The notes beneath the pieces were generated by a model. It was given only the letters and a program-made list of their open reading frames with translations, had not been told where the DNA came from and did no database searches. This document shows positions 48,621-53,088 of a DNA stretch of 54,528 nucleotides, piece after piece. The translations under genes were made by a program, and so were the position numbers. Position 1 is the first letter of the stretch. Every line of letters starts with the position of its first letter. The DNA is from Prochlorococcus sp. AG-409-P01 (lineage in GTDB: Bacteria; Cyanobacteriota; Cyanobacteriia; PCC-6307; Cyanobiaceae): contig QCKM01000010.1 in assembly GCA_003215335.1 (NCBI GenBank), positions 1-54,528 of the forward strand, in the 5' to 3' direction.

Positions 48621-49199
48621 TTATTTATTTGTTAGTACATGTATTAGCGAGTTGATTTTTATGCCATTTATGATGACATGATTATTTAAAATAGTTTTCT
48701 TTTTTAGGCCATATTTTTCAAGTGTTTCAATATGCTTGATTCTATTCTCATATGTCTCTGACCACAAATGTCTAAACTTAAGCTCTTTAAATGCTATTGT
48801 TTCTATAATATGTAAGAAATCCAAAAGGATATTTGTCCGCAGTTCAATATCTTTTTCATGTTCAGGTGACAGGAGAAAAGAGATTTCCGCATTTCTATCA
48901 ACCCAGGATATATTGACTAATCCACCGTAGCCTATGAGTTCTTTGCAGGAAACAATGCTTAGAAGAATTTGTGATGGTCTTTTCTTATTTTTTTCAGGCC
49001 AAATATTATTCTTATAGTATTCAATTTGCTCATCGAAACTTATTATTGAGTCTTGCCTAAGAATCACCATCTGTTCATTGCGCCATTTTCGTATACTTTC
49101 AATGTCGCCCGGTTGAATTGACCTAAGAGTCAAATTAGAATGCTTATAGAGACTTTTCCCTAAGACAGTATATTTTCCTTCGCCAAAAATATTATTCAT
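48621..49199 (-). CDS. GNAT-family acetyltransferase next to nonulosonate synthase
   Basis: A GNAT protein of 192 residues from ATG 49199 (the frame extends to 49217). LRSIQPGDIESIRKWRNEQ is the typical N-terminal strand-helix of the PseH/RimJ-like group, with IGYGGLVNISWVDRNAEISF and LKFRHLWSETYENRIKHIE. The neighbouring upstream gene is a NeuB/PseI synthase, so acetylation of a nonulosonic-acid precursor sugar is a reasonable guess. The gene is distinctly more AT-rich in codon use than menG beside it. Confidence 0.75.
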   Translation of the reverse strand: MNNIFGEGKYTVLGKSLYKHSNLTLRSIQPGDIESIRKWRNEQMVILRQDSIISFDEQIEYYKNNIWPEKNKKRPSQILLSIVSCKELIGYGGLVNISWVDRNAEISFLLSPEHEKDIELRTNILLDFLHIIETIAFKELKFRHLWSETYENRIKHIETLEKYGLKKKTILNNHVIINGIKINSLIHVLTNK

Positions 49200-49258
49200 T
49201 TTAAGTATAGCAATCAATGTACTTAGAGGTGTTTGGATCTATTGATATCTCATTCATT

Positions 49259-50323
49259 TTATTTTCTCTCAATCATTGAATCATCTAAAGGCTCTCCAAA
49301 TTTTAAATCTCTACTTGCTTTCATGCCTATAATACTATCTATAAATTTAGGATGCATTCCATTCCCTGGTCTGATTGATCTAATATTTTTCCGAGTGATA
49401 TCTTCACCTGATTTGATATTCTTAACTACATACAACGATCTCCTATTTTTCAATACAGAACTCTCAGATTTAGTCGGCGTATAGCATGGATTCCCAATGG
49501 CAACCCATGCCATATTTGTGTCAATTACAAGTTGCTTAAGTTCCTTGGGCTCTAGTGAAAAATTACTATCTACACCACCTTCGTTTCTGTCTAATGTGAA
49601 ATGTTTTTCTATTACCGAAGCACCCATGGCAATCGAGATTGTGGAAACCGCGGTTCCCATTGTGTGATCAGAAAGTCCAGTGACGAGATCAAATTTTTTT
49701 TCAATATCTTTGATTGTTGAAAGGTTTGACTCTTCAATCGGTGTTGGATATGCAGAAGTACAATGTAGAACAACAATATCTTTACATCCGGTTGACCTTG
49801 CGGCTTCTATTGCTTCTTCAATTTCAATTAACGTAGCCATCCCGGTTGAAAGTATTACGGGCTTTCCAGTGGCCGATACTTTTTTAATTAGCTCATGATC
49901 AATTAATTCTGGAGAGGCGATTTTATAGGCAGGTACATTTAAATCTTCCAGCATATCAATAGCTGTTGAATCAAAAGGTGATGAGAAGATTGTAATGCCT
50001 ACTTTTTTGCCATGGTTAATAATCTTTTCATGCCAATCCCAAGGTGTATGAGCTTCATCGTATAGCTCATACAGTCTTCTGCCTTTCCACAATCCTTCTT
50101 CTATAAAGAATTCGGGACCATCATGATCAATCGTTATTGTATCAGGAGTATATGTTTGAATTTTAACTGCATCAGCTCCAGCTTCTTTTGCGGCATCGAT
50201 AATCTTATAGGCTCTTTCAATATCACCATTATGGTTGCCCGACATCTCTGCGATGATATATGGCTTGTGACTCTTTCCAATTTTCCTCCCTGCTATCAGA
50301 ACACTTGGATGCTCGTTACTCAT
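49259..50323 (-). CDS. Nonulosonic acid synthase (PseI/NeuB family)
   Basis: This enzyme condenses phosphoenolpyruvate with a hexosamine derivative to give a sialic-acid-like nine-carbon sugar. The 354-residue protein has the NeuB barrel (YIIAEMSGNHNGDIERAYKI trimmed: AEMSGNHNGD, ADAVKIQTYTPDTITI, IFSSPFDSTAIDML, YKIASPELID, LSTGMATLIEIEEA, TGLSDHTMG, IEKHFTLDRNEGGVDSNFS) and a C-terminal SAF antifreeze-like domain (LYVVKNIKSGEDITRKNIRSIRPGNG split here as LYVVKNIKSGEDI, RPGNGMHP). The SGNHNGD loop is of the PseI type, so pseudaminate is the likelier product. ATG 50323 is preferred over a TTG nine bases ahead. Other pathway genes are not in the window. Confidence 0.9.
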   Translation of the reverse strand: MSNEHPSVLIAGRKIGKSHKPYIIAEMSGNHNGDIERAYKIIDAAKEAGADAVKIQTYTPDTITIDHDGPEFFIEEGLWKGRRLYELYDEAHTPWDWHEKIINHGKKVGITIFSSPFDSTAIDMLEDLNVPAYKIASPELIDHELIKKVSATGKPVILSTGMATLIEIEEAIEAARSTGCKDIVVLHCTSAYPTPIEESNLSTIKDIEKKFDLVTGLSDHTMGTAVSTISIAMGASVIEKHFTLDRNEGGVDSNFSLEPKELKQLVIDTNMAWVAIGNPCYTPTKSESSVLKNRRSLYVVKNIKSGEDITRKNIRSIRPGNGMHPKFIDSIIGMKASRDLKFGEPLDDSMIERK

Positions 50324-50453
50324 TAAAATCAAAGCAACATTTCTATATAATACATGATTACTCTATTGGAATTATTTAATGAGACGAAAGGTACTACCTT
50401 TAGATATTTCAAGAATTTTGATAAAATTGGTCTGATTGATTTTGAGTCTTTAC

Positions 50454-51455
50454 CTATGCTTTGTCAATCCACATTAGCTCTCTAGAACTATTTATTTCTG
50501 CTATAATATCTGCATTTATAGACATCAGGCTGCTTTGAGGAATTGAGGCGTTGATCATTCGAATAAAGGATTCAAGCGCTTTACCCTTAAGAGATGCTCC
50601 TCTCATTTTTTCCATGTTTTCCTCTTGCTGCATTTTCCATGACTCTGTAGATTTAAAATCAGTTGCTTTTAGGTGCCAAATGTGATCCAGTTGTTCCCAT
50701 ATGGGTTCATACTTTTTAAGTAAAACTTGAACATGACCTCGATAAAAGATTTCTTCCTCAGTTAGAGGAGGCTTCAATTTGTCTTCTGATAAGTTACTTG
50801 AATTTGGGGTATCTTTTGACTTGCAAGCTAAAAACCAACCTTCCACTATAAGAACATTTGGCTTGCAATCTCTCCAACCGCTTCGATCGCCAAGCCCATT
50901 TCTAAGAGATTTATCAAATTGAGGAACTTTTAATTCTCCAGTTTCTTTCCAGGAGTCAATTGAGCTTTTGAAGAGATTTAAATCATGACTCCCTGGCAAC
51001 CCTCTAGGGACTTTCCAAGGGTTGTCACTCATTACGAGATCAAGCTCATTTGCAGGAAGATAGAAGTCATCCATTGATACAACACTGACTGCCCATTTCA
51101 ATTCTTCAGCAGCAGCTTCTATCCATTTCCCCAAGCTGCTCTTTCCACAACCAGGTAATCCTGATATCCCTATTACGCACCTTTTATTTTTTTTCTCTAT
51201 AAATCTTTCAATATCAGTTAAAAATGGTAGGCCTATACCCCAAATCCAATCAGAGCTGGTACTAGTTGGCCAGCTTGAATGAGCTATGTTCGAACCACCA
51301 CGCTTGAACCAATGATCGAGCCAATCTTTGGTGCTTGGCCATCCTAGAAAAAATAAAAGATTTTTAATTCTGGAAAGAGAAAAATTGATATCAAGACCTT
51401 CAGGCTGCGATCCTGAATCAAGAGGTCCTTCGGATTCTAAGTTTCTTGTATTCAT
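50454..51455 (-). CDS. glyK: D-glycerate 3-kinase
   Basis: A plant/cyanobacterial-type glycerate kinase that returns photorespiratory glycerate to 3-phosphoglycerate. The P-loop VIGISGLPGCGKSSLGKWIE sits near residue 95. It is followed by VVSMDDFYLP, PRGLPGSHDLNLF, LKVPQFDKSLRNGLGDRSGW and NVLIVEGWFLACK, all signatures of this kinase. From ATG 51455 it has 333 residues; the open frame extends to 51497. It lies back-to-back with the gpgS remnant, with which it is functionally linked through 3-phosphoglycerate/glycerate. Confidence 0.9.
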   Translation of the reverse strand: MNTRNLESEGPLDSGSQPEGLDINFSLSRIKNLLFFLGWPSTKDWLDHWFKRGGSNIAHSSWPTSTSSDWIWGIGLPFLTDIERFIEKKNKRCVIGISGLPGCGKSSLGKWIEAAAEELKWAVSVVSMDDFYLPANELDLVMSDNPWKVPRGLPGSHDLNLFKSSIDSWKETGELKVPQFDKSLRNGLGDRSGWRDCKPNVLIVEGWFLACKSKDTPNSSNLSEDKLKPPLTEEEIFYRGHVQVLLKKYEPIWEQLDHIWHLKATDFKSTESWKMQQEENMEKMRGASLKGKALESFIRMINASIPQSSLMSINADIIAEINSSRELMWIDKA

Positions 51456-51557
51456 GTTATTCATACCTTTTATAAGGTTTCCATTTGATCGATACAATTT
51501 TGAATCGCTGCTGTCCAGCCAGCACTATGTGGGGCTGGTGCAAGTTCAAATTTGTTT

Positions 51558-51596
51558 TATTCATCAAAAAGAGCTATTAGCTCTTTTTGATGAATA
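51558..51596. terminator. Perfect 19-bp inverted repeat (hairpin) at the broken end of gpgS
   Basis: TATTCATCAAAAAGAGCTA at 51558-51576 and TAGCTCTTTTTGATGAATA at 51578-51596 are exact inverse copies with a single T between. Each side has an A5/T5 run, so it could act as a bidirectional terminator. The right arm is gpgS coding sequence (LALFDE) and the left arm looks like an inverted copy of it. Confidence 0.75.
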
Positions 51597-52350
51597 TGTA
51601 AGAAACTTTAGTCCTTCATATCCAGTTCGGATGTTAAGCCCAATCCTTTACCCTGCAAATGGAATTTCGTATGTAAAGGCTTTTTTTAGTCGACTCTCCT
51701 TGGAAAATAATTCATTACAGGGGAGAGTCGCAAGATTGGTTGTTGGACCTCTATTGGCAAGTTTTGACCAGCTCTTTGGAACTGACCCGTTTCTCCGATA
51801 CTTACAAGCCTTTTGATATCCTCTGGCGGGTGAATTTGCATTTACTAAAGACCTTTCGACTAATCTGAGGATTCCTTGTGATTGGGGACTTGAGATTGGT
51901 TTTTTGTCGGAGGTTTTCCGTCATGTTTCAATGACTCGTATGGTTCAAGTTGATTTAGGGATTTTTGACCATAAGCATAAAGAAATTGGCATATCTCCAA
52001 ATGAAGGACTTCAACGCATGTTTTCCGAAGTCTTTTCAACTGTTTTGCGAGGGCTTATTGAGCATCAAGCTCACACTGTGTCTAATGCTCAGCTTTCAAC
52101 ATTAGAGGTTATATATAGGAGGATTGGCGAGGAAAGTGTAAAACAATTTGGAGTAGATTCATTAGTAAATAAACTCCCATATGATCGACATGTAGAGGAG
52201 CTTGCAGCTCAACAATTTCCCTCTTTGCTTAGACCTGAGATTGAAAAATTCTTAAAATGTCCAGTCACTCAACATCTACCTTCTTGGCCAAGAGTTCTTG
52301 CCTGTGAAGTCAGATTGCAGGAGGATCTTGCAAGGGCAGGCCTAAGTTAA
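51577..52350 (+). pseudogene. gpgS: Glucosyl-3-phosphoglycerate synthase remnant (5'-truncated, nonsense codon)
   Basis: One reading frame carries the C-terminal two thirds of a GpgS-type glycosyltransferase, which makes the precursor of the compatible solute glucosylglycerate. VRNFSPSYPVRMLSPILYP and SYVKAFFSRLSLEN, GRVARLVVGPLL and FLRYLQAF are followed by TGA at 51814-51816. The same frame continues YPLAGEFAFTKDL, LRIPCDWGLEIGFLSEVFRH, VQVDLGIFDHKHK and PYDRHVEELAAQQFPSLL to the TAA at 52350. Relatives read F-R-Y-P-L-A-G-E here, so a CGA to TGA change explains the stop. The N-terminal nucleotide-sugar domain is missing upstream. Confidence 0.85.
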
Positions 52351-52466: not shown

Positions 52467-52504
52467 AATATCCTGCCTAAATTATATAATTTAGGCAGGA
52501 TATT
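52467..52504. terminator. Perfect 38-bp palindrome, probable terminator
   Basis: AATATCCTGCCTAAATTAT at 52467-52485 is followed directly by its exact reverse complement to 52504, with no spacer. It lies between the gpgS remnant and the leftward two-TM protein gene, in convergent position, so it can end transcripts from both sides. The flanking sequence has A-rich rather than long T-runs, so strength is uncertain. Confidence 0.6.
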
Positions 52505-52538: not shown

Positions 52539-52859
52539 TTAACCAACTCCAAAAGGCCAGAATATTTTTTCTGGACCAGCGAGGAATACACATGAACCAA
52601 TTAATACGGCTAACAATTGGACTCCTATGAATTGTTTCCATCTATAGGAAAGCAATGTCGAATCAGAACTAAGTCCCCAGCCTTCTTTGGGCTCATTTTG
52701 CTCTGTTCCAAACCAAAAGAAATTGGCAACTTGAAAAATGGCTATTAGACCAAAAATGGCTGGAACGATCGCTAGCCCACCTAGAGGTTTTACCAAACCG
52801 ATATCTGATGGGTGTGGAAGCTGAGTCGCGAAATCAATGATGGAGGTTAAATCAATCAT
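52539..52859 (-). CDS. Two-helix membrane protein of unknown function
   Basis: From ATG 52859, behind a GAGG stretch, this is a 106-residue protein; the frame extends to 52883. Two hydrophobic segments are clear (GLAIVPAIFGLIAIFQVANFF and FIGVQLLAVLIGSCVFLAG) around a polar loop with FGTEQNEPKEGWGLSSD. An N-terminal weakly hydrophobic SIIDFATQLPHPSD precedes them. I do not recognise the family. It may be a thylakoid or plasma-membrane component. It is followed by the palindromic terminator. Confidence 0.6.
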   Translation of the reverse strand: MIDLTSIIDFATQLPHPSDIGLVKPLGGLAIVPAIFGLIAIFQVANFFWFGTEQNEPKEGWGLSSDSTLLSYRWKQFIGVQLLAVLIGSCVFLAGPEKIFWPFGVG

Positions 52860-53088
52860 TAATAGGGTAAACCTCATTATCAATAGCAGCGAAGCTTAAT
52901 GCGGCACTAATCAATGAAGTTGGCTTTAGCTGGAGATCGTTACAAAATCTTTGGTGAGGGAAAGATGCTAGTGAGGAAGATCTCTTTGGGAAATCAATCC
53001 AGTACTGCTGGTCTACCCAACTAATACTGCGGGACTCGCGATTGCAAAACAACAGCTATGAGTTGCTGCGATTTGCAATAGCTCTTTC

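Follow-up and report, generated by a model that had tools for sequence, protein, structure and literature searches.

The locus described here raises the question of whether a gene for glucosyl-3-phosphoglycerate synthase (GpgS) has genuinely decayed in Prochlorococcus sp. AG-409-P01 while a neighbouring glycerate kinase gene has been kept, and what such a loss would mean for the compatible solutes of the cell. In the window, that is, the whole 54,528-nucleotide stretch of DNA analysed, the frame at 51577-52350 on the forward strand covers two thirds of a GpgS-type gene, from about codon 139 to its C-terminal end, and its translation gives 257 residues, interrupted by one internal TGA at codon 80 and closed by a natural TAA at 52348-52350. 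In a search of 60 relatives the closest intact orthologues were 67-68% identical to this relic (E-values down to 8e-121), and the orthologues matched were full-length and uninterrupted. Both halves of the relic gave glucosyl-3-phosphoglycerate synthase (NF040724) as their top NCBIfam match, spanning 141-219 and 221-394 of the 402 positions in the profile; the two GpgS models NF040724 and PRK13915 matched them best, with scores that fall below the curated cut-offs, as do those of an intact orthologue. The family assignment, made originally from motifs, is borne out by these matches and by intact relatives up to 68% identical. Similarity to intact GpgS begins at 51568-51577, near codon 139, and the first ~138 codons of ~400 are missing; this is the N-terminal nucleotide-sugar-donor-binding half of the enzyme, the part that the original prediction had taken to be lost. 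The phage records searched gave no match, and a scan of genome contigs with the relic as query returned no relative, after which glycerate kinase was used as the query.

What remains of gpgS carries further lesions. The former DXD metal/donor-binding motif (51589-51597, forward strand) now reads D-E-Y, with the first D kept, and alignment with intact relatives places a TGA at 51814-51816 (forward strand) in the position of the invariant Arg codon of the FRYPLAGE motif, as had been predicted, the remainder staying in frame to the natural TAA. Judged by the features expected of a GpgS, the relic thus lacks the DXD motif, an unbroken frame through FRYPLAGE and the N-terminal nucleotide-sugar-binding half. 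Thirteen intact picocyanobacterial genes share 109 invariant columns, of which 17 are broken in the relic, against 0-6 when each intact gpgS is compared in the same way with the others. The 177-residue part downstream of the TGA stays an open frame, and it might be supposed that translation of this part alone (51817-52350), or read-through of the entire frame, yields a protein with a new role, given that a single stop is all that interrupts a sequence still matching the GpgS profile. We consider this highly improbable, since the donor-binding half and the DXD motif are gone and conserved sites are eroded; moreover, among the relatives examined gpgS is either complete, broken, or missing from beside glycerate kinase, and is never found as a split gene or a short intact frame.

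It had been proposed that a single C-to-T change accounts for the nonsense codon. Such an origin is not demonstrated, because no intact relative uses CGA: in twenty intact relatives the FRYPLAGE Arg codon is most often AGA (11), and otherwise AGG (4), CGC (3) or CGT (2), so that a C-to-T change would need an unseen CGA as its starting point. On this codon usage, an A-to-T change from AGA appears at least as likely.

The arrangement in relatives puts the relic in context. There, gpgS is transcribed divergently from a GH13 phosphorylase-like gene that is followed by gpgP and then by glycerate kinase. The product of the GH13 gene is similar to phosphorylases of sucrose and of glucosylglycerol, and by analogy with the operon described in PMC11631117 it is likely to be a glucosylglycerate phosphorylase. 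That glucosylglycerate cluster, comprising gpgS, gpgP, the GH13 gene gmgG for glucosylglycerate phosphorylase and glycerate kinase, was described in Prochlorococcus NATL2A (PMC11631117), and the same cluster has been described for Synechococcus (PMC9361551). The window keeps the gene order and orientation of the known picocyanobacterial cluster, as well as a gpgS portion up to 68% identical to it, but whereas the known cluster is intact, here glycerate kinase alone is intact, each of gpgS, gpgP and the GH13 gene having been disrupted or removed. All that is left of gpgP is its last 26 codons plus the stop (FELAPAPHSAGWTAAIQNCIDQMETL), at 51470-51550 on the reverse strand, so that the HAD catalytic motifs of the N-terminal part expected of a GpgP (MPGP-type HAD phosphatase) are missing; this remnant ends up a few bases ahead of the glycerate kinase start. 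In ten relatives the markers in gpgP and gpgS lie 2935-3043 bp apart, against ~30 bp here, from which it follows that ~2.9 kb has been lost between the two genes. The locus is therefore the remnant of a picocyanobacterial glucosylglycerate cluster, and the loss is larger than originally described.

This is the original locus. Its flanking genes acsF and ubiE are also those of the intact cluster of one relative (L035), and because these flanks match, the two loci are orthologous. The genome is 99.5% complete, and a search of it found no second gpgS besides the relic and no other gpgP, the sole match to the latter being a 22-aa gpgP tail; matches to either gene were at the level of relics. The GH13 gene is absent from the locus and has no close homologue elsewhere in the genome, where only a 28%-identical GH13 amylase was found. 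That gpgS has decayed, as first proposed, is thus upheld. An old duplication might be invoked instead, with the stump as a redundant copy and a functional gpgS in an unassembled part of the genome; G015 offers a precedent of sorts, having one cluster that is intact (on C2) and another that is broken (on C8). The chance of this is slighter even than that of a protein with a new role: the stump occupies the position that the intact cluster has in L035, and at 99.5% completeness no other copy was found. With orthologous position, disabling lesions, relaxed constraint and no functional copy elsewhere, the gpgS remnant at 51577-52350 is a real pseudogene inside a deleted cluster. Between ubiE and glycerate kinase, at 48621-50332, the window also contains a NeuB-like N-acetylneuraminate synthase-type gene and an acetyltransferase-like gene, neither of which has a match in the relatives' loci examined.

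The deletion junction itself coincides with a perfect inverted repeat having 19-nt arms and a 1-nt loop (51558-51596). A perfect 19-bp palindrome without a loop lies at 52467-52504, between the gpgS relic and the convergent gene at 52539-52883, and looks like a terminator on the reverse strand. In a scan of the whole window with a minimum arm of 14 nt and a maximum loop of 8 nt, these two were the sole perfect inverted repeats, and both flank the gpgS relic. The junction hairpin may be a scar of template switching, and the sequence fits an event of this kind that both made the hairpin and changed the DXD codons. A perfect hairpin exactly at a junction can also arise in amplified DNA, which would make junction and hairpin a chimera of assembly or amplification and leave the real genome with an intact cluster. 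The usual amplification chimera inverts one side, yet the flanks here retain the ancestral divergent order; in addition, the nonsense codon is located away from the junction, and so are most of the 17 violated sites, and the 99.5% complete assembly yielded no further copy of the missing genes. Such an artefact is very unlikely, although it is the least improbable of the three rival readings.

The explanation that we hold with high confidence is that of a remnant cluster, in which loss by a single deletion and decay of gpgS were accompanied by a shift in solutes and by retention of the kinase for photorespiration. One deletion would account for the loss of the entire GH13 gene, the bulk of gpgP, the N-terminal portion of gpgS and the divergent promoter region, after which the gpgS stump would have decayed without selection. 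No glucosylglycerate would be made by the gpgS route, and the cell would rely on glucosylglycerol and sucrose, while glycerate kinase would have been kept for photorespiratory glycerate.

The last gene of the former operon (50454-51464, reverse strand) is intact, as originally predicted, with a full-length 335-aa frame that aligns to the plant/cyanobacterial type of glycerate 3-kinase, a P-loop (GLPGCGKSS), and only 1 of 63 invariant columns changed in the test applied to the gpgS relic. Its identification as glycerate 3-kinase comes from what is established about the cluster; none of the library models named it. Glycerate kinase also feeds the glycerate of photorespiration back into the Calvin cycle, and because photorespiration needs this enzyme its retention is to be expected and presents no paradox. 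The deletion should also have taken the divergent promoter region of the operon, and the kinase gene is therefore probably now transcribed differently; a promoter scan of its new upstream region gave no same-strand match and no excess over shuffled sequences.

The consequences for compatible solutes are more restricted than had been supposed. The gpgS route is lost, as predicted, but the effect should be limited, the genome having kept ggpS and a sucrose-phosphate synthase/phosphatase gene. The ggpS gene for glucosylglycerol scores 776 bits against a TIGR02398 cut-off of 569, and the sucrose-phosphatase domain lies within a 709-aa frame; no OpuAC-type betaine-binding protein was found in the genome. 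Beside ggpS are genes for a MalE-like solute-binding protein and an ABC ATPase, and two permease-like ORFs (L140 4504-9982, G000:C13). This locus would combine glucosylglycerol synthesis with probable transport in a 1.78-Mb genome, which is unusual if the organism is a Prochlorococcus. In the glycerate kinase tree the window is grouped (bootstrap 86, SH-aLRT 81) with G014, the nearest relative found, and in the ~1.57 Mb of this genome examined there is a 74% identical ggpS with the same neighbours and gene order, plus an intact gpgS cluster. From these comparisons ggpS was most likely inherited, and since G014 has both, one of two parallel glucosyl-solute pathways has been dropped here. Both pathways are carried by marine Synechococcus (PMC9361551), and according to Klahn 2010, as cited in PMC6753628, glucosylglycerate commonly serves nitrogen-poor marine cyanobacteria as a secondary solute.

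Absent or broken clusters are also seen in other lineages of the family. Nine genomes, several of them incomplete, have no gpgS, gpgP or GH13 gene beside glycerate kinase, the place at which absence was judged. In G006 (L073), as here, a C-terminal part of gpgP is kept directly upstream of glycerate kinase; unlike here, ~120 codons of it are left, and neither gpgS nor the GH13 gene was found there. The broken cluster on C8 of G015 (L046 6272-7947) likewise places pieces of gpgS, interrupted by stops and frame changes, next to glycerate kinase, but other parts survive and the kinase gene itself has a TAG. This second G015 locus may represent a decayed duplicate or a mixed assembly. The differing remnants suggest that the gpgS cluster has been lost repeatedly, although single-gene trees do not prove repeated loss: those of LepA and glycerate kinase need 6-7 label changes, of which only 1 is forced by well-supported branches, and both are weakly resolved. 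According to a published analysis (PMC11505929), the ratio of losses to gains for glucosylglycerate is high among cyanobacteria.

The loss of the gpgS cluster, whose genes serve both synthesis and recycling of the salt protectant glucosylglycerate, is ordinary gene loss caught part-way, observed in one genome of the genus and typical of genome reduction. The long gpgS stump could be counted as a working gene by profile searches. The loss gains interest from the retained ggpS pathway, since ggpS is absent from most Prochlorococcus (PMC6753628): ggpS kept beside a visible, partly decayed glucosylglycerate locus makes this an example in which one solute pathway of a redundant pair has been lost. 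Whether it is the reverse of the usual Prochlorococcus pattern, with lineages from a two-pathway ancestor each dropping the other pathway and solute choice tracking niche, we regard as evenly balanced. This genome offers a clean way of testing what purpose glucosylglycerate serves.
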